Shown: piece by piece, positions 30,788-44,507 of the stretch | Position numbering within the stretch: position 1 is the stretch's first letter | Layout of the letters: each line of letters starts with the position of its first letter | DNA from: Arthrobacter sp. fls2-241-R2A-200 | GTDB lineage: Bacteria > Actinomycetota > Actinomycetes > Actinomycetales > Micrococcaceae | Assembly (NCBI RefSeq): GCF_030209745.1 | Contig: NZ_JARVRJ010000007.1 | Coordinates: 1-64,000, forward strand | Length of the DNA: 64,000 bases | Direction: 5' to 3' | Position numbers and translations under genes: made by a program | The notes under the pieces: model-generated | Told to the model about the DNA's origin: nothing | Seen by the model: only the letters and a program-made list of their open reading frames with translations | Database searches by the model: none

Positions 30788-30822
30788 GGCCCCCGCAGTC
30801 TCATCAGCGAGGGCTTTCCTGA
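30788..30822 (-). terminator. Terminator-like hairpin downstream of the 69-aa membrane gene
   Basis: On the minus strand AAAGCCCTCGC pairs with GCGGGGGCCTT across a 10-nt loop, with one mismatch, and CCTTCAG follows. It lies just past the stop of the gene at 30835-31044. Confidence 0.5.
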
Positions 30823-30834
30823 TAACGATGACTC

Positions 30835-31044
30835 CTACGCGCCGGGAGGCGCAGCCATTGTCGCTCGTCCGGATTTCCGCCGGGCCATGACGTACCTGGC
30901 GATCAGCAACACCCCAACAGGAACAAACATGATCCCAGTAATGAGCCGCAGCGAGTCGACGGGCATCCATGAGAGGAGGATCGCGGCCCAGATGAGCAGA
31001 AAGATTCCAGCTACCAGTCCAGGAATGGACGGATTCTTATTCAT
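30835..31044 (-). CDS. Small two-helix membrane protein (69 aa)
   Basis: The ATG at 31044 has GGAAGGA upstream. The product MNKNPSIPG... has two hydrophobic helices (LVAGIFLLIWAAILLSWM, LITGIMFVPVGVLLIARYVM) and the basic tail ARRKSGRATM. Its function is unknown. The gap to the divergent gene at 31224 holds both promoters. Confidence 0.65.
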   Translation of the reverse strand: MNKNPSIPGLVAGIFLLIWAAILLSWMPVDSLRLITGIMFVPVGVLLIARYVMARRKSGRATMAAPPGA

Positions 31045-31223
31045 ACGGATTCCTTCCGATATGTTGCCGATAGTTACCAGCCTACGAGAGTGCGCCGGCC
31101 AACTACCGGCATCCGAGCCCTGAGACCAAGAACCCCAAGCCAGCTTGCCATTCCCCAACCGCAGAGTTTGGGTTCACTAGGAGGATAGTCTCAGGGTGAA
31201 TGACTCAAGATCGAGGATTGCCA

Positions 31224-31640
31224 ATGAACGTCGTGATTGTGGTCTTTGGAATATCGGCGGGACTATCCGCCGCATACTGGGGCCGCTACCGATTCCCCGT
31301 GGTCCGCCGCGGTTCTGTTCTCGACGAGCGCTTGGGACTTCTTAACTTGTACTGCGTTGCAGTCCAGGGCGTGGTCGCTATTGCTTTGGCGCTCTCAACC
31401 AACATGGCAGGATTGCCTGCGCTGGCTTTTGCGGCAAGTGGCCTGCTTCTTGCCGCGGTCCCTCTCTATTTGTCGAAAAGGAGGGACCCGCGACTGGCTG
31501 CGCCTCGCCGGGAGGGAAGCCATGTAAACGAGGAAAGTGCACTCAAGCTGACGTCGAGGTGGCCGTACACCGTTGTCTACACGGCCGGCTACGTCGCTCT
31601 CTTCTCCTATGTCCTGTCGCTCGGAATCGTAGTCAGGTAA
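31224..31640 (+). CDS. Hypothetical membrane protein (138 aa)
   Basis: ATG at 31224 follows GAGG with good spacing; an in-frame ATG at 31200 is an alternative. The protein has four hydrophobic stretches: VVIVVFGISAGLSAAYWG, CVAVQGVVAIALAL, ALAFAASGLLLAAVPLYL and VVYTAGYVALFSYVLSLGI. The family is unrecognised. Confidence 0.6.
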   Translation: MNVVIVVFGISAGLSAAYWGRYRFPVVRRGSVLDERLGLLNLYCVAVQGVVAIALALSTNMAGLPALAFAASGLLLAAVPLYLSKRRDPRLAAPRREGSHVNEESALKLTSRWPYTVVYTAGYVALFSYVLSLGIVVR

Positions 31641-32316
31641 CTGTAGTGCGCACGGGACAACCTAGTGCAAATGAGCCAATAACGATGACACCTCGAGCGG
31701 GTGCTGACGTGGGGAGACGGGCAAGGGCAGTTCGATCATCGAAATGGTTTACTCGTCGGGCGGAGGCATCGACCTCACCTCTCAATTGACACCGTCTTTC
31801 TGCCAACGCCCGATTGACCTTCCAGATTTGAGCAATCCCGCGTTGCCCGGACCGTCCTCTTTCGGGCTACCACACGTAGGCGGCAATGTGAAAGCGCCGC
31901 CACCATTGCCGACGAAGTCACAGCGTAGGTTAGTTAGTTAAGTGGTCCGACAAGATTCGGTGGTACCCATATACGCTGTCTCAATACCCCAGCTCGAACG
32001 CACGTTCCGCTTATCTTGGAGTGCGGATACGACCTGCTCCGCGCCAAGAGGCTCATGAAGTGCACCCGACAAGGCCGCACGCGGCCGCTCAGCGGTGAGC
32101 TGCCCATCGCGGACGTCAGTGGCAGCGATGAAGAAGACGAAGTCCACTATTGGAAGACTTCCCCGGCCGCTCCAAGATCGGCAAGATCGGGGCCCCCTCC
32201 TCGAGTTCAACCGCGTACTCCGGGCCGGTGGCGCGCGGGCTGACATACCGCGTTCCGAGGCTGTCGCGGCCGCAACGGCGTGTGATTCCGGACTTTTCTG
32301 GCGACCGATGGCGGAT
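31641..32316. other. Decayed sequence without an intact gene
   Basis: All frames are interrupted. On the minus strand around 31.95-32.3 kb two frames in turn give protein-like text (TGPEYAVELEEGAPILPILE, then VDFVFFIAATDVRDGQLTAE), as if a gene had been broken by a frameshift. I could not assign it. It lies just outside the left res-like site. Confidence 0.4.
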
Positions 32317-32342
32317 GCCCGTAAGCCGGTCCTCCACCGGCC
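32317..32342 (-). repeat. GGATCC-type palindromic repeat, copy beside left res-like site
   Basis: Read on the minus strand, GGCCGGTGGAGGACCGG then CTTACGGGC matches the island consensus, with one change in the central GGATCC (GGACC). It lies about 44 nt beyond the left 48-bp dyad. The right end has the same order and nearly the same spacing. Confidence 0.55.
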
Positions 32343-32386
32343 GACATGCACCACCGAAATCGAGTCATCAAAATCTTCGTCATTCT

Positions 32387-32434
32387 GTGACTTTCAGCGA
32401 TAAATGGCGGTCTTTTTGCGGCGCTATTTGGCGC
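32387..32434 (-). repeat. res-like 48-bp dyad, left copy
   Basis: Read on the minus strand this matches the right copy (47509-47556) at 44 of 48 positions, in opposite orientation on the chromosome. It contains a 28-bp imperfect dyad, AAATAGCG...CGCCATTT, the size of one resolvase-binding subsite. It lies 30 nt beyond the 3' end of the complete recombinase gene. Confidence 0.7.
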
Positions 32435-32463
32435 GTTCCCAGCAGTAGGCGCCGCGTCGGTCT

Positions 32464-33030
32464 TCAGATGGTGCGCCTTTGGAGTTCGCGGTACACCGTC
32501 GTCCGTGACACCCGGAACAGCTCGGCCAGTTCGGCCTGCGTATGCTCGCCGGCGTCATGCAGTGTCAGAAGGTGCTTCCGCTGCGTCTTGGACAATTTTG
32601 GCTGCTTGCCTTTTAGTCGCCCTTTGGCTTTTGCGACAACCATACCCTCGCGGGTGCGCATCCGGATCAGATCCGCCTCAAACTCGGCCACCATCCCCAG
32701 CACGTTGAACAGCAGACGGCCTACCGGGTCAGCTGGATCGTGGATGCTTCCACCGAGACTCAGAACAACCCCCTTGGCCGTCAGCTCATCGGCAATGTCC
32801 CTTGCATCAGATAGGGAGCGCGCCAGCCGGTCGAGCTTGGTCACCACGAGCGTATCGCCGGCCCGGCAGGCCGCCATCGCTTCACGGAGACCTGGGCGCA
32901 CACGATTCGCTCCCGTCAGTCCGTGATCGACGAAGATTTGGGTCTCCTCCACACCCAAAGCAACGAGGGCATTGCGTTGGGCGGTGAGGTCTTGGTCGTT
33001 CGTCGAGACCCGCGCATAACCGATCTTCAT
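32464..33030 (-). CDS. Serine recombinase (Tn3-type resolvase/invertase)
   Basis: The 188-residue protein has the catalytic domain MKIGYARVSTNDQDLTAQ with the active-site Ser of RVST, VVTKLDRLARS with the conserved arginines, then MVAEFEADLIRMRTREG in the long E helix. The C-terminal helix-turn-helix is KHLLTLHDAGEHTQAELAEL followed by FRVSRTTVYREL. It is complete and of normal length. The start is the ATG at 33030 (or 33039, three codons earlier). It is probably the enzyme acting on the two 48-bp dyads, but no transposase gene accompanies it. Confidence 0.9.
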   Translation of the reverse strand: MKIGYARVSTNDQDLTAQRNALVALGVEETQIFVDHGLTGANRVRPGLREAMAACRAGDTLVVTKLDRLARSLSDARDIADELTAKGVVLSLGGSIHDPADPVGRLLFNVLGMVAEFEADLIRMRTREGMVVAKAKGRLKGKQPKLSKTQRKHLLTLHDAGEHTQAELAELFRVSRTTVYRELQRRTI

Positions 33031-33151
33031 TCCAGTCATAAGGAACATGGTTGCAGTAATCCCCCCGTCACCGTGCATTTCATCGTGCGGGTCTTACGTA
33101 CATGGGCCAAGCCAGCAATCGCGTGGGACGTGGCGACAGGCTTTGGCGGCA

Positions 33152-33174
33152 CGGTGATCGACCGGCTTACGGGC
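33152..33174 (+). repeat. GGATCC-type repeat, divergent copy right of the recombinase
   Basis: ACGGTGATCGACCGG followed by CTTACGGGC matches the right half of the consensus well and the left half poorly. Together with the copy at 32317-32342 it flanks the recombinase gene in inverted orientation. The surrounding 33031-33375 contains no supported gene. Confidence 0.4.
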
Positions 33175-33375
33175 GCCCGTGATCCACGCCGGAACAGACC
33201 GATCACGTACAGGAATACTGATATCGGGAGCTCACAACCGGGGGCCACGCCATCGTTCGAGGTTTGTTCTGCCCATCGTCGCTGCATGCCCAACAGCGCT
33301 GGGCAAGAAGTCGGGACTTACTCGCAGCCGGTAGGCTTTTGCTGAAATTGCACATTGGGGAAGGGGCTTCACACG

Positions 33376-33786
33376 ATGAGTCGAACATGGCATGGATTTG
33401 ATGACCGGGTTTTTCTTGACCTAGCTGAGCACCAGACATACCTTCGCCGCCCACCCGTTCGATACTCCGCGAGGGGTCTCTCTGCGCATCTAGGAATTTG
33501 TGAAGTATGCGGCACAGCTCCGACGCAGGAAAATCCGCTTCAAACCGCCCACAGGGTGCCTTTTATCAAGGGCGTCCTAACGTTTCGATTTACGCCAGAC
33601 TGGCTTGACGGGCCAGAGAATCTGCGGTGGGCGCACCGCAATGTCTGCAACAAACAGGTTGAGCTTTCTGACGATGACATCCTCGCGCTCATTGCCCCGT
33701 TGGCAGATGGAGACAAGGTCCCGGATTGGATTAGCGCTGACCGCTCTTGGATAGGTGCGTCGGTTCTAAGGCAACGCGCTAGATAA
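33376..33786 (+). CDS. HNH-nuclease-like protein (136 aa)
   Basis: The pattern CEVCGTAP...LQTAHRVPF...GPENLRWAHRNVCNKQVELS has a CxxC, a His near the middle, an Asn and a closing H..CN. This resembles a minimal HNH/zinc-finger nuclease core. The usual DHIxP is AHRVP here. The ATG at 33376 is preferred to one 21 nt earlier. Neighbours are the recombinase and small accessory genes. Whether it cuts DNA or is a toxin-like fragment cannot be told. Confidence 0.55.
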   Translation: MSRTWHGFDDRVFLDLAEHQTYLRRPPVRYSARGLSAHLGICEVCGTAPTQENPLQTAHRVPFIKGVLTFRFTPDWLDGPENLRWAHRNVCNKQVELSDDDILALIAPLADGDKVPDWISADRSWIGASVLRQRAR

Positions 33787-33846
33787 CAGGCTGCATACAG
33801 GAAGCACAGTAACAGGCAACAACCAGTGCAAGACGTGAGGTAATTA

Positions 33847-34422
33847 GTGGATTCAGTGGCAATTTGGGCGATGCTTGCCGCTGTTGGCAGTGCTGTGGCT
33901 GCATTCGTCAGCTGGATGACTGCTCATACTGCGCTGAAAACGAATCGGAGGCAGCACTCTGCTGTGTTGCTTGCGGAGTTGACTACAGGTGAAGTAGCCT
34001 CCGCGCGCGATCGTATCGGTAGCTGGCTTTATGGAACACATGAGCAGCATTCTTCAATCAGCAACCCGGACCTGATACAGGCCTACTACGTAGTGGCATG
34101 GGCGCTCGAGCGCCTAGCAGTCGGTAGAACGGCTCTGGGCGCGATGCGCTTTGGCGATAAGCAGTCCCTGAAGGAGTTGGATGAGAGGATTCGCTGGCAC
34201 GTCCAGGAGCAAGCGCAAAACCTTCGCTTCATCGCTAACTACGTGAAGACAATCGACAATAAGGAGATGGAGGGTTCATTGCGCTCCATAGAAAAGCACG
34301 TTCGGTACCTAGAAGTTCCCGAAGATCGTCTCGTCAAACAGTGCAATGCGCCCGGCTGCTGGCGGCAGCCTGGCGTGGAGGGAGTACGCCCTTCAGACGT
34401 GATGCTTCCTGACAATCCATAA
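33847..34422 (+). CDS. Membrane-anchored hypothetical protein (191 aa)
   Basis: An N-terminal helix, AIWAMLAAVGSAVAAFVSWM, anchors a mostly helical cytoplasmic domain (ALKTNRRQHSAVLLAELTTG and on). This arrangement is like DUF4760-type proteins. GTG at 33847 has GAGG upstream. The third codon positions are less GC-rich than in the flanking catabolic operons, which suggests transfer. The function is unknown. Confidence 0.6.
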   Translation: MDSVAIWAMLAAVGSAVAAFVSWMTAHTALKTNRRQHSAVLLAELTTGEVASARDRIGSWLYGTHEQHSSISNPDLIQAYYVVAWALERLAVGRTALGAMRFGDKQSLKELDERIRWHVQEQAQNLRFIANYVKTIDNKEMEGSLRSIEKHVRYLEVPEDRLVKQCNAPGCWRQPGVEGVRPSDVMLPDNP

Positions 34423-34573
34423 ATGGAACCTTGCTACAGTCCAGAAATGACGACTGACCTCTTCGCAGCAGCTCAACGACTTACCGAGGTACACCGGGAC
34501 CGTCGCAGCGTTGACAGCGGTCGGCTTGTGGGGATGTATTCTCATTTCAAGCACACAAACTCTGGGGGACTAA

Positions 34574-35419
34574 ATGCCTGCTTTCTATTCCGTCAAGCCT
34601 TTCGGGCAAATGCCCGGTCCGAAATTGAAAACCGGCCGCGTGAACTTCCGTAAAGTCATTTTCGCAGCAGGGGTTGTAGGCGCCGTCTTCTTCACGTCAG
34701 CTTGCTCGGCTTCCGAAGCGGCGTCCCCGACTGGCACCTCAAGTCCCTCCGGTAGTGCGTCCGCAGCTGCTGCCCCGTCAGCGACCCCGTCGGCGGTTAC
34801 TTTTCCTTACACCTTGCCCAACGGCCTTGTCGCCAAGGGCGTAGCAAACGACGGCCACGGTGATTACATCCAGACGAGCATTGCCGACACTGACCCGGCG
34901 ATGAAGTACAATCCGGCCATCACCGATGACGCAGCTAAGGCTCACTTCTCGGAGGCCGACCTCGCCGAGGCCCAGAAAGTGATCGTCCGCTTCATTGCCG
35001 AGGAGGCCATCGACTCGACCCTCAATGACGGCACCGATGTTGACGCCTGGTGGGCGGCACATTTGGATCAGATCCATCCGGGAAATATGGTCATGCTCAC
35101 AGACATGAAATCCAGCAAGGATATTCTCGCTCGTGAACGCTGGATGGCAACCAAACCCGGGTTCTCTTACGCCCATGGAGACAAGCCCCGCGTCACCCGA
35201 CGGACCATCACCCCGGTCAAGCTCGGGTTTGTCGAAAACGGACCCCTGCAGGGTGTCATGCTTGGCACAACGGCGAGCTACAGCATGGCGGTAACTTCTG
35301 GACCAGATCAGAACTCGACAGCGGAACTGACTTTCACCGCCGCTAAAGACCCTGCTGACGGTAAATGGAAAATTGCCGGTTACAACACGAACTACCACAC
35401 AGCCCAATTGCTCAAATAG
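34574..35419 (+). CDS. Putative lipoprotein (281 aa)
   Basis: The ATG at 34574 follows GGGGGA. After a basic N-region the hydrophobic segment VIFAAGVVGAVFFTSAC ends in a lipobox with Cys near residue 44. A Ser/Ala/Thr/Pro-rich linker follows, then a soluble domain (DAWWAAHLDQIHPGNMVMLT, WKIAGYNTNYHTAQLLK). It should be anchored outside the membrane. The long N-region before the signal is unusual, and a GTG at 34640 (VNFRKV...) would give a more typical start. The family is unknown. Confidence 0.65.
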   Translation: MPAFYSVKPFGQMPGPKLKTGRVNFRKVIFAAGVVGAVFFTSACSASEAASPTGTSSPSGSASAAAAPSATPSAVTFPYTLPNGLVAKGVANDGHGDYIQTSIADTDPAMKYNPAITDDAAKAHFSEADLAEAQKVIVRFIAEEAIDSTLNDGTDVDAWWAAHLDQIHPGNMVMLTDMKSSKDILARERWMATKPGFSYAHGDKPRVTRRTITPVKLGFVENGPLQGVMLGTTASYSMAVTSGPDQNSTAELTFTAAKDPADGKWKIAGYNTNYHTAQLLK

Positions 35420-35459
35420 CAGCTCGGCAAAGGTACCTGGCTCGTGAAGAGGGCCACGT

Positions 35460-35574
35460 GGCTCAACCAGCTATTGCAAGGGGTAACTCTGACGGGGAGG
35501 AGGTCCGATTTACCGTCGCGGATTTCCATCCTTCCCCAGCGTCCCATTAGCCGAAGCGTTGCTAGAGTGGCGGG
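35460..35574 (+). promoter_or_regulatory. Duplicated upstream region of SUFU copy 2, leaderless start
   Basis: About 105 nt before the GTG match the region before SUFU copy 3 (38913-39027). They share GAGGAGGTCCGATT and GAAGCGTTGCTAGAGT. The TAGAGT lies six bases before the GTG start codon in both copies. That is the distance expected from a -10 box to +1, so the mRNA probably begins at the start codon. No ribosome-binding site is present. Confidence 0.5.
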
Positions 35575-36129
35575 GTGCCCACTCGCCTTGAGCAGTTCCT
35601 CTCCCATCTCGACGGTCTGAGCGGCGGGATCGAGCCACGGTTCTTCCCGGTCGAAAAGAGTCCTCCCGGGCTGCCCGGTGTGATTGCAATCGTCTACGAC
35701 GGCCTTCCCGAGCGCGGGATGATGACCGGCTTCACCTACGGCATCAGCCTCGCCAACCACCCCCTTTGGCGCTTCGGCAGACCCGAGCTCTGTATCAGCG
35801 TGAGGTCCGACGATGTTCGCTGGCCGCTTGCCCTCGCGGACATCGGAGAAGGCCAACGGGGAAACCCGTTCCACTACGGCGATACGATCAACTTCGGCGA
35901 GAGGATCGCTCCTGACTCCGACATGACCGCCTTCGTCGTCTTCGCCCCCTCCGTCCTTGACCGTGAGGACTACACCGGCATCAACATCGGCGAGACTCTG
36001 CCAATCAACCTCTGTGGTCTCTACCCGATCCATGAGGCCGAACGCCGCTACATCCAGGATCACGGATTCGACGCCTTTTGGGAGCTCGACTGGGACCCCT
36101 ACGACGTCAGACGGTCCTCCGCCGTCTGA
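35575..36129 (+). CDS. SUFU-domain protein, copy 2
   Basis: The 184-residue protein matches the bacterial suppressor-of-fused domain, with TRLEQFLSHLDGLSGG, TGFTYGISLANHPLWRFGRP, ELCISVRSDDVRWPLALA, and the late LCGLYPIHEAERRYIQDHG. In bacteria this domain is predicted from genomic context to be an immunity protein against polymorphic toxins. No toxin gene is in the window. The GTG start is supported by the leaderless promoter shared with copy 3. A palindromic repeat starts 10 nt after the stop. Confidence 0.8.
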   Translation: MPTRLEQFLSHLDGLSGGIEPRFFPVEKSPPGLPGVIAIVYDGLPERGMMTGFTYGISLANHPLWRFGRPELCISVRSDDVRWPLALADIGEGQRGNPFHYGDTINFGERIAPDSDMTAFVVFAPSVLDREDYTGINIGETLPINLCGLYPIHEAERRYIQDHGFDAFWELDWDPYDVRRSSAV

Positions 36130-36138
36130 GCGGACATC

Positions 36139-36165
36139 GTCCGCTCAGGGATCCCTATTTCGGAC
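36139..36165 (+). repeat. GGATCC-type palindromic repeat after SUFU copy 2
   Basis: GTCCGCTCAGGGATCC then CTATTTCGGAC has matching GTCCG and CGGAC ends. The run AGGGATCCCTATT and the following CGGACGCGGG are shared with the minus-strand copy at 40216-40241. It overlaps the stop codon of the small minus-strand frame at 36145. Confidence 0.7.
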
Positions 36166-36309
36166 GCGGGCCGTCCGATAGTCCACGGGCTTAGGGGGAA
36201 CATCCCCGGGGGTCCTACTGCTTGTCCGCTTCCGATTCGGCTTCGGTTTTTCCAAGATCCCGGCGAAGCGTTGCCGGTCAAGGAAGATGGTGATCCAACC
36301 GATCGCCAT
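36145..36309 (-). pseudogene. Truncated third copy of the membrane-protein family
   Basis: The 54-codon frame has a membrane helix (MAIGWITIFL) followed by LDRQRFAGILEKPK, which matches LDRQRFAEILEATK in the 36498-36935 protein. The N-terminal three-quarters of that family is absent. The frame ends within the palindromic repeat. It is probably a recombination remnant. Confidence 0.45.
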
Positions 36310-36497
36310 GAATAGAAGCGATGCGAGGGTCTCCCTTTTTCATACAAGCAAATCGGGGCCTAGTTGGCGTGGGGCCAGGTGTGGTCGCCGGCGAGGTTGA
36401 TGTGGTCTAGGCCTAGGGTTTTATCGACGCATACCGGTGTCGCCGTAGGCATGATCCCTCGAATAGGGGATGACAGTTGGTTGAGCTAACCGGCGGA

Positions 36498-36935
36498 TTA
36501 TGCGGCCTTATTCCGGTCCACGCGCTCTGGCCTCTCTGCTCGGAGGGCCGCCTCTGCCTTGGTTGCCTCCAGGATTTCAGCGAAACGCTGCCGGTCGAGG
36601 TACGGCGCACCGCCCAAGCGAATGACGCGACCCATGTAGGGGTCCAGTTGCATGAGCTTCTTCTCGCCGTAAAGAAGTGTCGTGTACCCGGCCCTTCGTT
36701 CGGCCATTTCACGGCGGGCTCGCCGAAAAAGCGCAACGCCAAATAGGGGGGAATTGAGGAGAGCAAGCCCTAAGAGAGCATGAACTACCCAGTTCTCGGG
36801 GACTCTAATCTCGTTGAGGATCCATATGACGCCGACTACAGCGATCCCTGACGCTGCGAAAAGATATTGCCAGCGCAACAAGGCGTAAGCGGTCGGGCCT
36901 TCTAGGAGAGGCCCCTTAGCCGAACTGTCTACCAC
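36498..36935 (-). CDS. Membrane protein, module A large subunit (145 aa)
   Basis: It has two membrane helices (YLFAASGIAVVGVIWIL, WVVHALLGLALLNSPLFGVALF), then a soluble part with RRAGYTTLLYGEKKLMQLDP and YLDRQRFAEILEATKAEA. The protein at 37561-37971 shares this C-terminal half (RQAGYTTLRLGDKDLLQRDP). The GTG start overlaps the TAG stop of a preceding small frame (ACGTGGTAG), exactly as in the second module. The function is unknown. Confidence 0.7.
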   Translation of the reverse strand: MVDSSAKGPLLEGPTAYALLRWQYLFAASGIAVVGVIWILNEIRVPENWVVHALLGLALLNSPLFGVALFRRARREMAERRAGYTTLLYGEKKLMQLDPYMGRVIRLGGAPYLDRQRFAEILEATKAEAALRAERPERVDRNKAA

Positions 36936-37054
36936 GTTGATGCTCCATATCCCGCATTAAGTAGATCCGCCGGAAGCGTCGAAATTCCGGCGTCCAGTTC
37001 CATTTTCATAATCGCACGTCCAAAACCGTATGACGTGTAGCCGACAACCGTCAG
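36929..37054 (-). CDS. Small coupled ORF, module A (about 41 aa)
   Basis: TVVGYTSYGFGRAIMKMELD and the ending STLPADLLNAGYGASTW align with the 55-residue ORF of module B (37965-38132), which ends QLPADLLPFGYGVGTW. Both stop inside the start of the larger membrane gene. No ATG or GTG is found at the expected N-terminus; a CTG at 37054 overlapping the previous stop is the only candidate. It may be a decayed copy. Confidence 0.45.
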   Translation of the reverse strand: MTVVGYTSYGFGRAIMKMELDAGISTLPADLLNAGYGASTW

Positions 37055-37389
37055 GGTCGCGTTAGTTGAACACTCTTTTCATACGAAGGATTATCCACGA
37101 GGGCGGACGCCACATGGACGACTGCATCGTGGCGACCCAAGGCCGCCCGGCCGGCGGAGTGAACGATTACGGGCAGCAAGCTGCAATGTGCCAATTGATC
37201 GATTCCTAACCCAGAGCCGAACGCGTCGACTATGTCCGTAAGCCGGCGGACCCCCTCACGCTCGTGCCCGGTGGGGGATTCCCTTACGTACATTGAGAAT
37301 GACAAGTCGACTGCTGCGGGACACGACGGCGCCGAGCAAAACCTGATGAAAAACGGAGCCGCGAGGACGCCAACGCCACGCAAAAACAC
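37051..37389 (-). CDS. Hypothetical secreted or lipid-anchored protein
   Basis: The frame gives a hydrophobic start (VFLRGVGVLAAPFFIRFCSA) and then GHEREGVRRLTDIVDAFGSG and VIVHSAGRAALGRHDAVVHV, which look protein-like. The GTG at 37389 is a guess; the frame is open to 37476. Its stop overlaps the beginning of the small module A ORF. The stretch coding for GVRRLTD also resembles the CCGGCTTACGGAC half of the palindromic repeat, so part of it could be non-coding. Confidence 0.35.
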   Translation of the reverse strand: MFLRGVGVLAAPFFIRFCSAPSCPAAVDLSFSMYVRESPTGHEREGVRRLTDIVDAFGSGLGIDQLAHCSLLPVIVHSAGRAALGRHDAVVHVASALVDNPSYEKSVQLTRP

Positions 37390-37560
37390 GGCTTTAGCCT
37401 GCGCGGGCTCCGCTTTCTCAAGCGATCCCTGATGAGGGTGATGATCGACGGCAGTGGTGTTTGCTTTGGAAGCCAATATCGCTTGCGTTCAGACGCCCAC
37501 CGACGGAAAGAAGTGACGGGCGGCCGCACAAGATGCTGTCATGTTAAGCGGAGTTGCTGT

Positions 37561-37971
37561 CTACTGGCGAACCTCTGTGTGGGCCGCCTTAGCCTTGGTT
37601 GCTTTCAGAATCTCAGCAAAACGTTGCGGGTCAATATAGGGTGAGCCGGCCAAGCGGATGATGTGGCCCATATAGGGATCTCGTTGTAGCAAATCTTTGT
37701 CACCGAGGCGGAGAGTCGTATAGCCAGCTTGCCGTTCCACCTTTTCGCGCTTGGGAACGCTACCGATAAGAACGATAACCGGCAGCCCAGTGACCCCGAA
37801 ACAAAACAGCAGAAAAGTCGTAAACCACGACTGTGGGACACCGGACACGCTGCAGACAAAGGTTATTGCAAGCACTATGAGGGTCGCCGTTGTACATCGG
37901 TTCCGCCACTTCTGAAGCTGGTGTGCGGTTACGCCTGGCACGAGCTGACGCTCGGGATTGTTGGTTACCAA
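37561..37971 (-). CDS. Membrane protein, module B large subunit (136 aa)
   Basis: A paralogue of the 36498-36935 protein. It has two helices (CTTATLIVLAITFVCSVSGV, WFTTFLLFCFGVTGLPVIVLI) and the shared tail with DPYMGHIIRLAGSPYIDPQR and FAEILKATKAKAA. The TTG start overlaps the stop of the 55-residue ORF (TTGGTAA), which supports this unusual start. The two proteins agree best in the soluble tail and poorly in the helices. Confidence 0.7.
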   Translation of the reverse strand: MVTNNPERQLVPGVTAHQLQKWRNRCTTATLIVLAITFVCSVSGVPQSWFTTFLLFCFGVTGLPVIVLIGSVPKREKVERQAGYTTLRLGDKDLLQRDPYMGHIIRLAGSPYIDPQRFAEILKATKAKAAHTEVRQ

Positions 37972-38132
37972 GTACCTACTCCGTATCCGAACGGGAGGAG
38001 GTCCGCTGGCAGCTGTCCCACGGGCAGCCTAGTAACCGGTTCCTCGCCGACTGACGTTTTGTCTAGCATTTTTTTCACCGCAAGGCCATAACCGAACGAA
38101 GCAAAGCCAACGCCGGTCATAACGATTCCCAT
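37965..38132 (-). CDS. Small coupled membrane ORF, module B (55 aa)
   Basis: The ATG at 38132 opens MGIVMTGVGFASFGYGLAVK, a single membrane helix, then a polar tail ending LPADLLPFGYGVGTW. It is too short for ordinary gene finders. Its homologue precedes the module A gene in the same overlapping arrangement. Conservation of both sequence and overlap in two modules is good evidence that it is translated. Confidence 0.65.
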   Translation of the reverse strand: MGIVMTGVGFASFGYGLAVKKMLDKTSVGEEPVTRLPVGQLPADLLPFGYGVGTW

Positions 38133-38158
38133 GCTGCATTGCTGGGAGCCCCAGCCCG

Positions 38159-38187
38159 AGCCCCTTCCTGAGCTTCTGGAAGGGGCT
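38159..38187. terminator. Perfect 10-bp hairpin
   Basis: AGCCCCTTCC and GGAAGGGGCT pair perfectly across a 9-nt loop. It lies 27 nt upstream of the module B small ORF and probably ends a transcript from either side. No T run follows. The rest of 38188-38440 holds no supported gene. A weak match to the palindromic repeat lies near 38305-38330. Confidence 0.55.
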
Positions 38188-38440
38188 GGAGTGAGTCATC
38201 GCGCCAGTGTGTCACGACGCTGGGATGTTGGCGGTAGTCAGTCACCAGCTGAGACTACCCAACGAACGCATCCGTGAGAGCACCTCGGTGGACAAGTACG
38301 CCTGCGTCGGAGGAGGGATCCTTCCGGGCGCTGGGGTGAAGAAGTCCAGTTCGCCATCTGTGATGAGCAGGACCCTAGAATAAGGGCGCAGCACTATGAG
38401 ACATTCGCCGACGGACGATCGTAAAGAGGAGCGATATTTG

Positions 38441-38857
38441 GTGGCAGACTCTTACGTCCCCAACACGCTGTTGTCGAGGCTGGTGGGGAACAGAATGTAC
38501 TCCATCGAGTTCGTCCTGAACGACTACGTGCAGCTCCGTTTCGACGGAGACCCTGATGCCTGCGGCCCGATCGTCCTGAACAGTTATGTATGGCCAGTTG
38601 CCGAGTCAGCCGGTCGTTCATGGCGTGAACCGGAGCTAGGCTACGCGGATGCGTTGCGTCGGCTCACTCCGGGAACGGTGATCTCCACCAGCGAGGCAAC
38701 AGGTACAGGTATCCGCATTGAGCTTGATACCGGCACGGTCCTGATTCACCCTGCTCAAGAGGAGGTCCACATCGAGATCGCAGAACTCAGAGGCTTCAGT
38801 GATCTTTCATGGATGGTTTGGCGCCCGGGTGAGGAAAGCTTTGAGGACTTGATCTAA
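38441..38857 (+). CDS. Hypothetical protein, immunity-like (138 aa)
   Basis: GAGGAG at 38426-38431 best serves the GTG at 38441 (or the TTG just before it), although the frame is open from 38396. The protein is beta-rich and acidic (MYSIEFVLNDYVQLRFDGDP, IRIELDTGTVLIHPAQEEVH, WMVWRPGEESFEDLI). Its size and composition fit the small immunity proteins of polymorphic-toxin systems, but no family motif is recognised. A palindromic repeat lies 32 nt past the stop. Confidence 0.6.
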   Translation: MADSYVPNTLLSRLVGNRMYSIEFVLNDYVQLRFDGDPDACGPIVLNSYVWPVAESAGRSWREPELGYADALRRLTPGTVISTSEATGTGIRIELDTGTVLIHPAQEEVHIEIAELRGFSDLSWMVWRPGEESFEDLI

Positions 38858-38888
38858 CTGCCCCCTAGTCAGCGGCCAGAGACTGCCT

Positions 38889-38914
38889 GTCCGGTGAAGG
38901 ATCCCTGACCGTGC
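38889..38914 (+). repeat. GGATCC-type palindromic repeat after the 138-aa gene
   Basis: GTCCGGTGAAGGATCC followed by CTGACCGTGC is close to consensus. It lies between the 138-aa gene and the duplicated upstream region of SUFU copy 3. Confidence 0.7.
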
Positions 38915-39027
38915 ATGCGTTGATAGCGCGAGGAGGTGATTCTGGCGGCGAGGAGGTCCGATTGACCGACGAGGATTCCCGTCCGTCTCCCGTGTCTCAT
39001 AAGTCGAAGCGTTGCTAGAGTAGCGGG

Positions 39028-39582
39028 GTGCCCACCCGCCTTGAGCAGTTCCTCTCCCATCTCGACGACCTCAGCGGCGGGATCGAGCCACGGTTCTTCC
39101 CGGTCGAAAAGAGTCATCCCGGGCTGCCCGGTGTGACTGCGATCGTCTACGACAACCTTCCCGAGCGCGGGATGATCACCGGCTTCACCTACGGCATCAG
39201 CCTAGCCAACAACCCCCTCTGGCGCTTCGGCAAGCCTGAGCTCTGTATCAGCGTGAAGTCCGACGACGTCCGCTGGCCGCTTGCCCTCGCGCACATCGGA
39301 GAGGGCCAACGGGGAAACCCGTTCCAAATCGGCGACACAATCAACGTCGGCGAGAGGATCGCTCCTGACTCCGACATGACCGCATTCGTCATCTTCGCCC
39401 CCGCCGTCCTTGACCGTGAGGACTACACCGGCATCAACATCGGCGAGACTCTGCCAATCAACCTCAGTGGTCTCTACCCCATCCATGAGGCCGAGCGCCG
39501 CTACATACAGGATCACGGAATCGGGGCCTTCTGGGACCTCGACTGGGACCCCTACGACGTCAGTCGGCCCTCCGTCGTCTGA
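39028..39582 (+). CDS. SUFU-domain protein, copy 3
   Basis: This 184-residue protein has the same organisation as copy 2. From residue 38 it is nearly identical to truncated copy 1 (shared ANNPLWRFGKP, NPFQIGDTIN, GAFWDLDWDPYDVSRPSVV). The GTG start follows TAGAGT by six bases, again suggesting a leaderless mRNA. As for copy 2, an immunity role is inferred from the domain. Copies 1 and 3 are the most recent duplicates. Confidence 0.8.
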   Translation: MPTRLEQFLSHLDDLSGGIEPRFFPVEKSHPGLPGVTAIVYDNLPERGMITGFTYGISLANNPLWRFGKPELCISVKSDDVRWPLALAHIGEGQRGNPFQIGDTINVGERIAPDSDMTAFVIFAPAVLDREDYTGINIGETLPINLSGLYPIHEAERRYIQDHGIGAFWDLDWDPYDVSRPSVV

Positions 39583-39591
39583 GCGGGCCTG

Positions 39592-39617
39592 GTCCGGTGG
39601 AGGATCCTTTACCGGCC
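39592..39617 (+). repeat. GGATCC-type palindromic repeat after SUFU copy 3
   Basis: GTCCGGTGGAGGATCC followed by TTTACCGGCC. As RNA the core folds completely when G-U pairs are allowed. It lies 10 nt after the stop, the same distance as for copy 2. Confidence 0.75.
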
Positions 39618-39628
39618 CCTTCGCCCGG

Positions 39629-39871
39629 TCATGACAAAGAAAATTGAATCCCGAGCACTGCGAAGAATATGCCCATGAGCATGTACATGAATCCCATGCC
39701 CTTAATCGACGAGACGTCAGCGAATGTAAAACCCCCAGGTCTGATTCCTCGGCTCTCCCTGTAGATCCTCGACCATGTACTTGCGGTTCCATTGATATCT
39801 CGAAAGACATGCAGCCCAAACAGGAACAAGAACAGACCAGCTACACTCACGCCGATGGCAACCCCGTTCAC
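39629..39871 (-). CDS. Small membrane protein (80 aa)
   Basis: There are hydrophobic helices at each end (VAIGVSVAGLFLFLFGLHVF, GFMYMLMGIFFAVLGIQFSL) with a polar middle. GTG at 39871 has no strong ribosome site. It is convergent with SUFU copy 3, with a palindromic repeat between them. The family is unknown. Confidence 0.55.
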   Translation of the reverse strand: MNGVAIGVSVAGLFLFLFGLHVFRDINGTASTWSRIYRESRGIRPGGFTFADVSSIKGMGFMYMLMGIFFAVLGIQFSLS

Positions 39872-40215
39872 TCTGGTTATGACGCCGAGAAGAAAAGTGC
39901 CCAGGAAAAGCGCGATGAAGCACCGGTGGAAGGTTCTGGCTGGTTGAGGTAATTCGGTAAATAGCCGCTTGATCCCCCGGAGAGTTTTAATGACGCACCT
40001 TCCACAGATTGGTCGTACCTAAGGAGTCTTGAGACACCTGGTCTGTCACCGACCATACATTGCACCCGTAGGCGGAGTCCGTGAAGCGTTCGCTCAAGGA
40101 TCACGGTGGCACCAGGACGAAAGCCTGACCCACAACCCCGCGTCCGGGCGAACTGCCGAAGCACCGTGCGGCCCGAGCAACGCCCGTAAGTCGGTGGTTT
40201 AGCAGAGGTCCCCGC

Positions 40216-40241
40216 GTCCGAATAGGGATCCTCAACCGGAC
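40216..40241 (-). repeat. GGATCC-type palindromic repeat, minus-strand copy
   Basis: On the minus strand: GTCCGGTTGAGGATCC then CTATTCGGAC, with perfect GTCCG/CGGAC ends. It lies in the 780-nt interval 39872-40653, where I find no gene. A partial further copy (CCGACTTACGGGCG on the minus strand) lies near 40185-40200. Confidence 0.7.
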
Positions 40242-40653
40242 TCTTGGGACGTCCGTTTAGTCACCGGGCGCAAGTTGAGAGGTGGCCACCTTCGATGACA
40301 ACGTCGGCGCGCAAAGGTTGAATGAGCGTTTGGCGCAATCGATCGGTGGGAACATTCAGCGTGTTCCCCTCAGTCGGTTCCGGCCGTCCGATTTAGGGTT
40401 CGCTCGAGGCGAGCATCACCGGACCTGGATGATCGCCCGTCACCTGGAAACTGAATGACGGCCATGCGAGACAGTTTCTGCTCGTGCGTCCGCAAAGCGG
40501 TCCGGTGACGGGAAGCTTTCAAACTGGCGTCCAGTGTGGATTCTTAGATCCGCCGCCCGGACGGGGGCGGAGATAGGCCTTGGGCTTCGTCCAGAAATGG
40601 GAGGGCCACAATCGGCATAAAGTATTCCGACAAAGACGAAGTGGAGGTGGACG

Positions 40654-41046
40654 TTGAACCTTAACCAGTGGCATGACATGCGCACTCTATCCGAGGACGT
40701 TCTCGCCAGGGCAGTTGAAGATTGGGTCACCCCTTCCGAAGTGGTCTCCGTATGTCACCGTCGAGGCCTCCTCGTACCAGGTGACATCGGGAGGTCGACG
40801 CATCGGCCGTGGGACTGCACCCCCGGGGAGGCTATCGTCCGCATTGCGACTAAATGGGCTTCCTTTCCCGATCCCTCCCGACTGAGACCCGGGGACATAG
40901 TGTGGCTCGACGCGACACCGCAGGGCGAGCGGATTGGGGAGGCGGTTCTGCTTCGTGAACGTCCCGCCTGGCTGGAGGCAACAAATGCTTCAGACCGAGA
41001 CCGCCGCAACACGGGAATGGTGCACGATGATGGGGCTTTGAACTAA
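40654..41046 (+). CDS. Hypothetical protein (130 aa)
   Basis: The TTG start has GGAGG six bases upstream. The soluble product contains RTLSEDVLARAVEDWVTPSE and LRPGDIVWLDATPQGERIGE, with a Trp-rich C-terminal region. The family is unrecognised. It stands alone between two gene-free gaps, as other island genes do. An inverted repeat, CGGCAAGGA...TCCTTGCCG, follows near 41067-41106. Confidence 0.5.
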   Translation: MNLNQWHDMRTLSEDVLARAVEDWVTPSEVVSVCHRRGLLVPGDIGRSTHRPWDCTPGEAIVRIATKWASFPDPSRLRPGDIVWLDATPQGERIGEAVLLRERPAWLEATNASDRDRRNTGMVHDDGALN

Positions 41047-41177
41047 CCCGGCCAAGGAAAGCAACGCCGGCAAGGACCTACCCGCTGCGGGGATGGAAAC
41101 CCCCACGTCGACAACACGATCCTTGCCGCGAGGGCCCCCAACCCATGGAGTATCGATCGGTGTGAGTTGATGGTCTT

Positions 41178-41783
41178 ATGTTAGAAAATTTCAGCACGCA
41201 TTTCGCTGTAACCAGCGGCACCCCTGGTGCGCCAGCTGCCGGGACAGGCGATGTGTCCGGTTTGTTTGCCCGCTACGGGGGGTGCACCTTCAATGGTGGA
41301 CTTTATAGGGTCCACTCCGAAGAGACCTCAAAGAGGGCGGCCGTGATGCTCGCCGAAGCCTACCCGGAGTTCAGGTTCCCCTTCGTCCCTTTCGGATTCG
41401 ACTGACTTGGCCGCCAGTTCATTCTTGACCTCAGAACCAAGGAGCCCGACCCCGAGATTCTGCTGCTGGAACCTGGGACAGGATATGCGTTGGAGATCCC
41501 AAGACGGTTCTCCACTTACCACGACGACGAACTTGTCCGCGACCCCGAGCCAAGCCTGCTTCCAAGTTTCTTCAACAAGTGGCGACTGGAGAATCCCGCC
41601 GACCTCGCCTTTGATGAATGCGTCGGCTATAAAGTGCCACTATTTCTAGGCGGCGATGATGAGCTTCACAACCTTGAACTCAGCGATATGGAGGTCTACT
41701 GGAGCCTGATGGGACAGCTTCGCTTAGCAACGCAGCACCTCGAGCCCGGCACTCACATCAACGCAGTCGAAATCGGGGATTAG
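41178..41783 (+). pseudogene. GAD-like/Tdi1-type immunity protein interrupted by TGA
   Basis: A single frame of 201 codons matches the T6SS immunity Tdi1/GAD-like family: FARYGGCTFNGGLYRVHSEE, GRQFILDLRTKEPDPEILLL, EPGTGYALEIPRRF, then CVGYKVPLFLGGDDELHNLE and LSDMEVYWSLMGQLR. At 41403-41405 a TGA stands where relatives have Trp in FGFDWLGRQF. The frame is otherwise intact on both sides, so the change is one base, TGG to TGA. It is a recent nonsense mutation, a sequencing error, or read through. Confidence 0.75.
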
Positions 41784-42044: not shown

Positions 42045-42074
42045 GTGTCCGGTGAAGGATCCCTCAGCGGACAC
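42045..42074 (+). repeat. GGATCC-type palindromic repeat, longest copy
   Basis: GTGTCCGGTGAAGGATCC followed by CTCAGCGGACAC. The outer arms, GTGTCCG and CGGACAC, are perfect, and the 30 bp agree with their own reverse complement at 26 positions. It lies between the Tdi1-like gene and the gene at 42156. Nothing else is seen in 41784-42155. Confidence 0.8.
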
Positions 42075-42155
42075 CCAAAACTCTTGGCAAGGAAGAAGCC
42101 TGGGCCACAATTACTTCAGGTTCACACGTACGACATTCGCGAGCGGAAGAGGCCA

Positions 42156-42968
42156 ATGAATCAGGAACGTCCGAACGAGGCCATAGCGAAGCAGGTCGTT
42201 GAGCGGGTGATGGGGATTCAGCTCGAGCACGCAGATACCCACGGCGGGGTCGATTACATGTCCACGGATGGCACTGTCGCCCTCGAAGTTACGGCTGTCA
42301 CCGACGGCGAGAAGCAGAGCGCTCGTCACGCCCTTTCCAGGTCTAAGGCGAAGGGCTCTCCGACGACGACATTGCAGGGCTGCTGGCTCGTGTTTGTCTC
42401 GGACACCCAGCCGGGGATGAAAACCTTCATGCAGCGAGTGCCGCCGGCGATTGCGGAACTGGAGTTCGTGGGCGAGACGTACTTCGACGACCAGCGCGCA
42501 GCGGCGCACGTTATCGAAAAGGGTGAACTTTCACGAATCTACCGGCCGCTACTGGACGCCGGCGTCGAGAGAGCGGTCTACCAGCCGCATCCGGACCGCC
42601 CGGAGGATCCGGATCACGTTCACCGTATCTGGACTAGCACTGGAAGTGGCGGCTCGGTCAGCGGCAGCGATGAGTCACTTGACCGACTGATGGAGGAACT
42701 CAACGAGAAGCCCGACAATCCGACGAAGCTGCTTGCATCCGGTGCCGAGCAGCGCCACTTGTTCGTGTGGCTAAACGACGACACCTGGTACAACATCGCC
42801 CGCCCACTCAGCCGTGAGTCACCCTCTTGGGCGGACGACGGATGGGGTCTCCCCACGACCAAGCCGCAGCTGGATCCCAGCATTACACACTTGTGGGTCG
42901 TGCATGACCGGTCCCGACTGGGCTGGCTGTGGGACGGCGAAAAGTGGCAGGAGCTGCGAGACCCCTAG
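42156..42968 (+). CDS. Hypothetical protein (270 aa), possible nuclease-like N-terminus
   Basis: The ATG at 42156 follows GGAAGAGG and is better than the open frame above it. The N-terminal part, HADTHGGVDYMSTDGTVALE followed by VTAVTDGEK, has a D...ExT pattern reminiscent of PD-(D/E)xK nucleases, but the Lys is not obvious. The C-terminal half has many Trp (HLFVWLNDDTWYN, GWLWDGEKWQEL). It may sense or cleave nucleic acid; this is only a structural hint. Confidence 0.55.
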   Translation: MNQERPNEAIAKQVVERVMGIQLEHADTHGGVDYMSTDGTVALEVTAVTDGEKQSARHALSRSKAKGSPTTTLQGCWLVFVSDTQPGMKTFMQRVPPAIAELEFVGETYFDDQRAAAHVIEKGELSRIYRPLLDAGVERAVYQPHPDRPEDPDHVHRIWTSTGSGGSVSGSDESLDRLMEELNEKPDNPTKLLASGAEQRHLFVWLNDDTWYNIARPLSRESPSWADDGWGLPTTKPQLDPSITHLWVVHDRSRLGWLWDGEKWQELRDP

Positions 42969-43063
42969 GCCACGCCAACGTAGATGAGTGCGTCCCTTGC
43001 GGTCACCGGCAAGTTTCCAGCGCCGACCGCGCCCAGCGGTCGGCGCTTAGCCTTCTTAAAAGG

Positions 43064-43095
43064 GTCAGACCCGGCATCAACCTGCCGGGTCTGAC
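43064..43095 (-). terminator. Terminator of the permuted tRNA-like transcript
   Basis: Two perfect 13-bp arms, GTCAGACCCGGCA and TGCCGGGTCTGAC, surround a 6-nt loop. On the minus strand the stem is followed by CCTTTTAAG. It closes the transcription unit that contains both tRNA halves. Confidence 0.75.
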
Positions 43096-43117
43096 TGCAC
43101 CTCTCAGTGCTAAAGGA

Positions 43118-43190
43118 GGCGCCCGCTCTACCAACTGAGCTATACCCCCGTGAAGTGGAGGTAGGGGGACTCGAACCCCCGACCAGACGC
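43118..43190 (-). tRNA. Circularly permuted tRNA-Ala-like locus
   Basis: On the minus strand a 3' half comes first (43190-43156). It has anticodon-stem strand GCGTC, TGGTC, a T arm GGGGG-TTCGAGT-CCCCC, acceptor strand TACCTCC and A73. After the linker CTTCAC comes a 5' half (43149-43118). It has acceptor strand GGGGGTA, a D arm TAGCTCAGTTGGTAGAGC, G26 and anticodon-stem strand GGCGC. The halves pair with each other: seven acceptor pairs, including the alanine hallmark G3-U70, and five anticodon-stem pairs with one G-U. The anticodon loop is split and its joined sequence is unknown. A promoter-like -10 and a terminator flank it. The alternative is two remnants left by tandem duplication of tRNA-Ala. 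Confidence 0.55.
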
Positions 43191-43252
43191 TTTGTGAGTA
43201 CTTCGGACGCGAACCGAATGAGGAACCTGACGTTCCTGCACCCTTCTTACCT

Positions 43253-43258
43253 ATTATA
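43253..43258 (-). promoter_or_regulatory. -10 box for the tRNA-like transcript
   Basis: A perfect TATAAT on the minus strand would start transcription near 43246, about 55 nt before the 3' half. No good -35 hexamer is visible at 16-18 nt. The leader between can form two small hairpins, GGAAC/GTTCC and TTCGG/CCGAA. Confidence 0.5.
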
Positions 43259-43391
43259 ACTCCAGCACCATAGATAACACCAGCATCGTTCGCCTCGGCG
43301 GTGTTCCACTTCCTTCGAATCGGGACGGCCCAACTACTCTTCTGAGCGTAAGGCACCCTTGGCATAGGCGCCGGACACGCGCCCGGGGAGA

Positions 43392-44507
43392 ATGACTGTT
43401 GTGTTCACAAATCCCGAAGGGCGTAATCTCACTCCAGCGCAAGCAATGGATCTTGACGACAACTATTTTGGATCGAGGCCTCTCGGTTACTTTTCCTCTC
43501 GCATTGCATCATTGATTTCGTCCGCCGGAACGCTTCAAGCTGATACCACTGAAGGGATGGGTGGTCAGGTTGCTGCCGCACTTGGGCTCTCCGGCGTCCC
43601 TGGCATTCTGATATTCACCGAATCCGACCGCGAGCTTCAAATAGCTACCGATTCGTTCGCGGTTCGCCATCATGCAGCTGAATCACTCGTGCGCCTGTAT
43701 CACGCGCTGACCGTGGTCGCCCCGAAAATGGGCGTGGAGAGATGCGTCTGGGCGGCGATCGCTGAGGGGCCAAATCGAACGACAGTCCTCGTGGATGAGG
43801 CCAAAGCCCAACTGCTAAGCACGACGGGGCTCGAGACCTTTTGGAAGACGGTCTTACCGAACGGTGCAGAGACAGCAAGTGCTGAACAGATGGAGATGAT
43901 GAACAAGGCCTTGGGGGTCATGGCGGCCTGGCTGCAGCATGCCATGTACTTACTAGTGCGAGACGACATCGATATCAATGCCGCCCATAACAAGGTCAAG
44001 CATGGGCTCGCCGTCAGATCCCGGGATGACAATCTCCTCACGTTTACCACCGATCCCCCCAACTCAGATGGCACATTCTCGCTCAGCGCTCTGACGGGCA
44101 AGAACGCCGTCGATATTTTTAGCTCTCCAACTCTCGATTACCTCGCCCGACCAAAATCCAAGGGTCGGAAGCAAGGACTGGAGGTGACCACCCTCGCACT
44201 TGCTCCATCGGTCCTCCTCGCGGAGTCGTGGATGATGTCCGTAACATACGGTGCTATGTTCCAGGTCGCAGCTTCTCGACACTTTCAGGGGCGCGACGTT
44301 CCGTTTATGGCTTATCCTTCTTTGCCTTTGGCGCCGACACCGGAACAGCTCCTAGGTGAATCGGTTGTGGGGATGCGGCACCCTGTCACAAGTCCCCCGG
44401 ATGGAGGGGCGCTTGATAGGACGGCGGGAATAGCTTTTCAGTCCACCTTCATGCCCCTCGACATCGACTTTCCCGGCAGCACATCAAGGGTCGTTGTAGA
44501 CGAATAG
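43392..44507 (+). CDS. Hypothetical protein (371 aa)
   Basis: I do not recognise this soluble protein. ATG at 43392 has GGGGAGA upstream. It contains DTTEGMGGQVAAALGLSGVP early and a helical HNKVKHGLAVRSRDDNLLTF segment in the middle. The HNKVKHG pattern is shared by some proteins carried on mobile elements, but I cannot assign a fold. Base composition is closer to neutral than in the catabolic operons, which agrees with transfer. It is divergent from the tRNA-like unit. Confidence 0.6.
   Translation: MTVVFTNPEGRNLTPAQAMDLDDNYFGSRPLGYFSSRIASLISSAGTLQADTTEGMGGQVAAALGLSGVPGILIFTESDRELQIATDSFAVRHHAAESLVRLYHALTVVAPKMGVERCVWAAIAEGPNRTTVLVDEAKAQLLSTTGLETFWKTVLPNGAETASAEQMEMMNKALGVMAAWLQHAMYLLVRDDIDINAAHNKVKHGLAVRSRDDNLLTFTTDPPNSDGTFSLSALTGKNAVDIFSSPTLDYLARPKSKGRKQGLEVTTLALAPSVLLAESWMMSVTYGAMFQVAASRHFQGRDVPFMAYPSLPLAPTPEQLLGESVVGMRHPVTSPPDGGALDRTAGIAFQSTFMPLDIDFPGSTSRVVVDE

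Follow-up and report, generated by a model that had tools for sequence, protein, structure and literature searches.

Between two protein-coding genes of the window, by which we mean the whole stretch of 64,000 nucleotides of Arthrobacter DNA analysed here, the minus strand from about 43250 to 43060 carries the two halves of a tRNA in exchanged order, the 3′ half standing 5′ of the 5′ half (Table 1). Read along this strand from 43258 to 43060, the elements are a −10 hexamer, hairpins H1 and H2, the single strand TACTCACAAA, the 3′ strand of the anticodon stem, the T arm, the acceptor 3′ strand, the loop ACTTCAC, the acceptor 5′ strand, the D arm, the 5′ strand of the anticodon stem, CTCCTTTA, hairpin H3, and a 13-bp hairpin followed by a short T tail. 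All seven acceptor positions are paired, including G3·U70, and so are all five positions of the anticodon stem, one of them as G·U. Both the exchange of the halves around CTTCAC and their complementarity at seven acceptor positions (with G3-U70) and five anticodon-stem positions had been reported in a preliminary description of this DNA, which our reading confirms. When the T half of one tRNA was combined with the D half of a tRNA of another isotype, 7/7 plus 5/5 pairing arose in 1 of 1050 combinations, the material being the 33 tRNAs parsed from 44 Rfam tRNA matches in the same genome, with long-variable-arm tRNAs left out.

Table 1. Features of the permuted tRNA-like RNA and its two neighbouring genes (positions in the window)
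Feature	Position	Strand	Sequence or remark	Basis
−10-like hexamer	43253..43258	-	TATAAT, weak −35 region	sequence reading
Hairpin H1	43221..43237	-	AGGAAC-GTCAG-GTTCCT	sequence reading; present in MFE fold
Hairpin H2, anticodon-arm-like	43202..43218	-	5-bp stem, 7-nt loop TTCGCGT	covariation and loop pattern
Conserved single strand	43191..43200	-	TACTCACAAA (most other modules TTGCTCACNAA), ends in A37 A38	alignments
tRNA 3′ half (anticodon-stem 3′ strand, variable region, T arm, acceptor 3′ strand)	43157..43190	-		sequence reading, Rfam scan, alignment
Anticodon-stem 3′ strand	43190-43186	-	GCGTC	
Variable region	between 43186 and 43180	-	TGGTC	
T arm	43180-43164	-	GGGGG-TTCGAGT-CCCCC	
Acceptor 3′ strand	43163-43157	-	TACCTCC	
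A73	43156	-		
Linker	43155-43150	-	CTTCAC	
Loop closing the acceptor stem	43150..43156	-	ACTTCAC (A73 and linker)	
tRNA 5′ half (acceptor 5′ strand, D arm, anticodon-stem 5′ strand)	43119..43149	-		sequence reading, Rfam scan, alignment
Acceptor 5′ strand	43149-43143	-	GGGGGTA, then TA	
D arm	43140-43125	-	GCTC-AGTTGGTA-GAGC, then G26	
Anticodon-stem 5′ strand	43123-43119	-	GGCGC	
Hairpin H3	43097..43110	-	GCACT-GAGA-GGTGC	sequence reading, fold
13-bp hairpin (43095-43064) and CCTTTT	43060..43095	-	terminator-like	sequence reading
Divergent neighbour	43392..44507	+	371-aa protein, no Pfam/NCBIfam/PADLOC match; homologues on three Micrococcaceae plasmids	
Convergent neighbour	42045..42968	+	307-aa protein, no family match; homologue on one Arthrobacter plasmid	

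ARAGORN calls no tRNA in the window or at any of the 11 loci described below, and no Rfam family matches in the window at gathering scores. All 200 shuffled versions of the 196-nt stretch fold less well than the stretch itself (z −5.79). In its unconstrained optimum the T stem and the acceptor stem are formed and the D arm and H2 are absent, and imposing the tRNA-like fold gives a structure 3.8 kcal/mol weaker than this optimum. Of the seven single-module loci, four form the T stem when folded without constraint.

The signals on either side were earlier described as a perfect TATAAT and a 13-bp terminator. The hexamer and the hairpin are both present, and in the consensus scans neither a sigma-70 −35/−10 pair nor a terminator passes in the window, where the hairpin tail has four T. 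By a strict hexamer rule a sigma-70 promoter lies upstream at 5 of the 11 loci against 0.77 expected, these five being closer relatives and hence not independent, and a stem of at least 14 pairs with a T-rich tail is found at 8 of the 11 in a count made without a shuffle control; the window is in neither group. Upstream of L010, L067, and L007 a second TTGACA, seen by eye, stands 6 nt before the −10 inside the 17-nt spacer and is possibly an operator. A short peptide read from an SD-like AAGGAAG and an ATG or GTG in the H2 loop was considered and rejected, the start being missing by eye in the window, L008b, and L009b.

Distribution of the RNA Family

The same order of halves recurs in other actinobacterial genomes, as the preliminary description had proposed to look for: 15 modules were found at 11 loci, in 6 of 198 genomes of the genus, on two Arthrobacter plasmids, and in three more distant genomes. 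BLAST with a 211-nt stretch as query (E 1e-6) gave matches in 9 of the 198 genus genomes, from which G104, G050, and G074 were dropped since ARAGORN calls tRNA-Ala there, leaving G000, G021, G023, G140, G150, and G192; when one module of G150 served as the query instead (E 1e-8, 206 genus genomes), five of these six were recovered and G021 was missed. The plasmid members are pA58H3 (Arthrobacter) and NZ_CP084558 of Arthrobacter sp. FW306-05-C, the latter with two modules, and tandem pairs also occur in G150, G140, and G023. Further members come from another genus of the same family (G405), from the same family (G439), and from another family of the same order (G614, one of two matches in 396 genomes). 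G439 (62.9 bits) and G614 (69.1 bits) are the weakest; they were kept because ARAGORN finds no tRNA there and their halves pair (acceptor 6/7 and 7/7, respectively; anticodon stem by eye), and G614 is without the H2 loop pattern.

Profile searches have to be read with care, as neighbouring tandem tRNAs can score as high as about 62 bits when searched with R1, a model of the family. The family scan scored the best 10 candidates per genome and the class scan the best 9, so that neither is a census; at E 0.01 the former gave matches in 336 of 345 genomes, most of which, judged by score among those best 10 candidates, are ordinary neighbouring tRNAs. Thirty loci were fetched from the family scan: L022 and L023 were already known members, five were checked with ARAGORN, by which L024 and L025 were retained and L026, L036, and L038 rejected for the tRNAs present, and the others were dropped by score. 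L006 was likewise rejected as a real tRNA array. It belongs to a 400-kb Arthrobacter record termed a plasmid (L101, NZ_CP104273 140000-172000) that has 18 tRNAs in 5 kb together with secY, secG, clpX, and umuD, and is perhaps a phage-plasmid.

A pattern scan of viral contigs returned nine loci, namely the tRNA arrays L105-L107, the Y-RNA-like L110 and L111, and L055, L108, L109, and L112; the scan of genome contigs returned three loci. L054 proved to be G150, L053 is a tRNA region, and L052 is of another kind. L052:250-560 (minus strand), on a Flavobacteriales MAG contig, has a T half and acceptor strand before a D half with a whole anticodon arm CTGGA-CTGTTAA-TCCAG (Asn GTT); its acceptor pairs at 6/7 by eye, ARAGORN makes no tRNA call within the 8 kb, and it is a remnant or else a tRNA-Asn whose permutation lies in the variable region. 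L053:4237-4373, on a metagenome contig, is a tRNA-like gene enlarged by about 80 bases at its anticodon loop, and L055:9044-9150 (minus strand) is a permuted-looking tRNA-like stretch of a viral contig (acceptor GGCCTAG/CTAGGCT, 42.9 bits with model R2).

Covariation and Conserved Signatures

Base pairing is maintained by paired changes in three alignments. With 9 MAFFT rows, 14 of 26 pairs changed on both sides (shuffled mean 6.8), and with 14 rows, two of which are apparently off by one base in the anticodon stem, 16 of 26 did (shuffled mean 9.3). Among 15 model-fitted rows the count was 17 of 26, in 66 cells, with 94.9% of cells paired against 38-54% when slid, figures that are biased toward the structure by the way this alignment was made. 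None of 500 shuffles reached the observed value in any of the three, although kinship among the rows inflates such counts, and a weaker measure, that of further pair types, was equalled by 9, 2, and 0 of 500 shuffles with 9, 14, and 15 rows, respectively. Each of the five helices has at least one pair changed on both sides in the 15 model-fitted rows, and the H2 pairs covary as a local hairpin. The window thus holds an RNA unit that is genuine and conserved and has the topology of a permuted tRNA.

The letters of the tRNA elbow are retained (TTCRA in the T loop, GG in the D loop). U33 and A73 occur in 15/15 modules and A37 A38 in 14/15, L009a having AC at this place. A 7-nt anticodon loop is kept in none of the 15; beyond U33 the sequence opens into flanks that are unlike one another. 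G3·U70, the alanine-type mark of the acceptor, is present in 11/15 modules against 1/10 Y-type RNAs, and two modules match the acceptor of tRNA-Phe at 14/14 positions when compared with the tRNAs of G000 rather than those of their own hosts. The H2 loop pattern [CT]TC[AG].G. is found in 13/15 modules and 0/10 Y-type RNAs and the pair TACTTC/TGA[AT]CTC, conversely, in 0/15 and 8/10, both motifs having been picked after seeing the sequences and some of the ten Y-type RNAs (L110, L111) being near-copies.

These signatures divide the earlier proposal of an expressed permuted tRNA or a tRNA-derived RNA. Its second half stands, as the unit is conserved and covaries; an expressed permuted tRNA of the algal or archaeal type is unsupported, because the 7-nt anticodon loop is absent, U33 is followed by unlike flanks, and, to our knowledge, bacteria are without the BHB splicing used for permuted tRNAs. 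The permuted tRNA genes of algae and one archaeon share the order of the halves with the family. They differ from it by their BHB junctions and by a ligated tRNA with an anticodon (PMC3978253), whereas the family RNA has no anticodon loop.

Comparison with Bacterial Y RNA

The closest precedent is bacterial Y RNA, which the preliminary description does not name, and not the permuted tRNA of algae and archaea. Work on bacterial Y RNAs has dealt with them as partners of Ro60, and a crystal structure of Salmonella YrlA is known (6CU1). It has been stated that Y RNA can be superposed on tRNA once a circular permutation is allowed for (PMC11472068), that its tRNA-like domain binds PNPase and the stem formed by its two ends tethers Rsr (PMC8394870), and that Salmonella YrlA might act as a competitor against an anticodon nuclease (PMC7790460). 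Elsewhere yrlA is mentioned among the candidates for RNAs gained by horizontal transfer in some mycobacteria (PMC9569102), and mycobacteriophage Y RNAs are credited to Chen 2014 (PMC12282133).

YrlA and the family RNA have the T arm, the closed acceptor hairpin, the D arm, and an anticodon-like stem in the same permuted order. A local scan with YrlA (Rfam RF02553) gives 36.9 bits for the window (E 7.8e-7, model positions 23-85), 36.6 for L004, 26.2-38.3 for the modules of L007-L010, and no match at E 0.1 for L011, so that the gathering score of 69 is unmet at every locus scanned (the window, L004, and L007-L011); L010 and L007b align over the whole length of the model. As the tRNA array L006 scores 34.4 bits with YrlA, this score cannot tell the family RNA from tandem tRNAs. 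In the reverse search, model R2, built solely from the new family, found at least three more distant RNAs (63-67 bits) in 394 genomes of the class, none of the three with an ARAGORN tRNA. Two of these lie in L119, immediately ahead of a TROVE gene (Pfam E 5e-13). L110 and L111, both viral contigs, have two such RNAs each, at a distance of some kilobases from a VWA protein. The module is thus common to the family and to Y RNAs. On the two viral contigs the RNAs stand in tandem (L110:1484-2080, L111:3091-3688), and ARAGORN also makes tRNA calls with two-base anticodons there. The RNA of mycobacteriophage Snenia (NC_028778, L005), matched by BLAST and by both models and without an ARAGORN tRNA, has the same module; it differs in that it follows a DUF2828/DUF7788 Ro-like gene (gp54), can form an 8-bp terminal stem, and has no H2 loop.

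One may ask whether the locus encodes an ordinary Y RNA, which would redirect RNA decay by holding PNPase alone or a Ro-type protein that has escaped recognition. The shared module, the YrlA matches, the R2-found RNAs beside TROVE, and PNPase binding by a tRNA-like domain (PMC8394870) speak for it. Set against it, TROVE (Ro60) and DUF2828 (Ro-like) are each absent from the 9 host genomes and 2 plasmids, the positive controls being found in Deinobacterium and in phage Snenia, respectively; DUF7788 has no match in the genome of the window, nor has its positive control. An unrelated ring protein may still be present in the hosts. The match of the window to YrlA is limited to part of the model, and the TACTTC/TGA[AT]CTC pair typical of the Y-type RNAs compared is missing.

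The Y stem itself bears on the question from both sides. Several Y-type RNAs have flank-to-flank helices at matching distances (13 bp in L119, 10 bp in L110, 8 bp in Snenia), and the 15 modules have no such helix at a common place, H2 covarying instead as a local hairpin; the shuffle tests of flank helices are mostly non-significant in both sets, and the flanks of tandem loci include the neighbouring module. The unconstrained folds of the seven single-module loci contain 8, 6, 16, 0, 4, 0, and 4 flank-to-flank pairs (8 in the window, 16 in L010), which favours the Y RNA reading. The Y stem is not conserved in the family, rather than shown to be absent. On account of these flank pairs, together with the recount of defence genes given below, the mimic reading, its decoy step, and the counter-defence version described at the end were weighted down slightly and the reading as an ordinary Y RNA up, and the latter now has perhaps a one-in-several standing: unlikely, with a chance worth keeping in view. 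The family RNA is set apart from YrlA by the Ro gene not found in its hosts, the lack of a conserved Y stem, extra hairpins, an Ala- or Phe-type acceptor, and tandem modules.

Other Explanations

A precursor cut at the acceptor loop could yield a two-piece alanylated RNA like permuted tmRNA, or a re-ligated decoding tRNA. Permuted tmRNA has been described in a two-piece form (PMC3978253), and the family shares with it (RF04321 and cyanobacterial tmRNA) the T half placed before the D half and the Ala-type acceptor; the frequent G3·U70, the invariant A73, and a weak match of 24.8 bits would fit. This score lies well below the gathering value of 47, no tag frame is seen by eye, and a D stem and an anticodon-stem remnant are present, unlike in permuted tmRNA. 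Moreover, 4/15 modules are without G3·U70, two of them with the Phe acceptor, ACCA follows the stem in 0/15 acceptor loops, and there is no 7-nt anticodon loop, which leaves this explanation improbable.

The halves were also proposed, in the preliminary description, to be left over from tandem tRNA-Ala genes after duplication and deletion. That tandem tRNAs score up to about 62 bits with R1 and 34 with YrlA shows how the pattern alone can mislead, yet covariation across loci, the ARAGORN result at the 11 loci, and the 1 in 1050 chance combinations all oppose it. The four tandem loci are decisive in part: acceptors pair at 7/7 within a module, and across modules at 4/7 in L008 and L067, 6/7 in L009, and 7/7 in L007. 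Since L008 and L067 pair at only 4/7 across, they rule out remnants of tandem tRNAs, L009 and L007 being silent on the point, and overall we regard this origin as refuted. The alternative parsing of the tandem loci as one tRNA with a 53-nt insert (52.8 bits) was rejected on the same two loci.

Integrating elements use tRNA genes as insertion sites, and L017, L018, and L020 have serine resolvase genes at a distance of some kilobases, but that the locus is an att site, where a tRNA gene was broken up by integration of an element, is extremely improbable, as the halves adjoin in exchanged order with a 7-nt loop, occur on plasmids, and are duplicated as modules in tandem, and no integrase was seen among the neighbours scanned.

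Genomic Surroundings

The distribution of the family is scattered and partly plasmid-borne, and plasmids and genomic islands are its probable vehicles. Named plasmids account for two loci. Two others are on contigs of 4.8 and 11 kb that contain a gene of the Replicase family, and a further one is on a contig of 52.6 kb that contains a ParA-type gene. No partner protein is common to the seven loci, out of 11, that were compared, where the matches are resolvases, regulators, and common genes farther off. The two neighbours in the window match no PADLOC model, their single-sequence AlphaFold predictions have pLDDT values of 37.8 and 35.8, and the stretches fetched around their plasmid homologues (L113-L116) have no such RNA nearby. 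Elsewhere in the window, 29860-41783 contains near-duplicate ORFs (MPTRLEQFLSHLDDLSGG... at 35575-36129 and 39028-39582), a SUFU-type protein (29860-30543), and a Tdi1-type immunity protein (41490-41783), which suggests a polymorphic-toxin immunity array beside the RNA.

Several loci are accompanied by genes of defence type: a type I restriction system and an Mrr-type nuclease on the chromosomal contig of G150, a Schlafen-AlbA match slightly below the cut-off in G023, GmrSD in G192, and a PIN protein, MmeI, and DUF559 in G439; LacI- and IclR-type regulators surround the RNA in G021. For 40 ORFs around five chromosomal loci, 68 PADLOC models matched at E 1e-10, and the 25 of them listed include restriction, PDC-M11, HEC-06, Orf5, and mads, one ORF each. 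The control of 91 ORFs from 10 stretches matched five models (mads_3, AriA, PDC-S37, Hhe, and a transporter) with at most two ORFs each. Counted by protein, there are perhaps five defence genes among the 40 against at most seven among the 91, no clear excess, although the kind of gene differs. Defence genes are company at some loci, not a link to the RNA.

A Possible Role as tRNA Mimic

Taken together, the locus is probably a gene for a non-decoding permuted tRNA-mimic RNA, Ro-less and with no conserved Y stem, that is related to YrlA or resembles it, and for the identity as a tRNA mimic in itself our confidence is high. The product would be a structured small RNA of about 190 nt, presumably transcribed, whose core is a circularly permuted tRNA mimic. 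The T arm, the closed acceptor hairpin, and the D arm would form the tRNA elbow and the upper L, and the anticodon stem would open after U33 into 5′ and 3′ flanks with hairpins of their own. Given the kept elbow letters, U33, A73, and, mostly, A37-A38, together with an anticodon loop that is open and an acceptor end that is closed, such an RNA could present a tRNA body without decoding.

By analogy with Y RNA, the mimic may bind proteins that recognise the tRNA body, such as modification enzymes, tRNA nucleases, synthetases, or PNPase. With its acceptor of Ala type, or in some modules of Phe type, it might act as a decoy or competitor and lower the activity of tRNA-directed enzymes in a conflict between element and host; this is the likeliest single mechanism and is offered tentatively, being on balance doubtful. 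The Ala-type acceptor may serve recognition or may simply reflect ancestry from an ancestral tRNA. A more elaborate version would be a mobile counter-defence or addiction RNA, in which mimic cassettes copying host Ala and Phe acceptors, single or in tandem on plasmids and islands, shield tRNAs from tRNA-cleaving effectors or switch these on without Ro; we regard it as a speculation with an outside chance.

In the literature found, with the Y RNA lists of Chen 2014 and Wang 2018 outside the comparison, there is no permuted tRNA-like RNA of Arthrobacter and no plasmid tRNA-mimic small RNA of actinobacteria. What is known is the permuted tRNA-like module of Y RNA; what is new is a variant in hosts where no Ro was found. 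Such RNAs are skipped by a tRNA finder and imitated by tandem tRNAs in profile searches. If the reading as a tRNA mimic is true, the module would seem to work alone, without Ro, and the family would offer a small natural system for asking what the module binds, in which tandem Ala- and Phe-type modules make isotype-specific mimicry directly testable.
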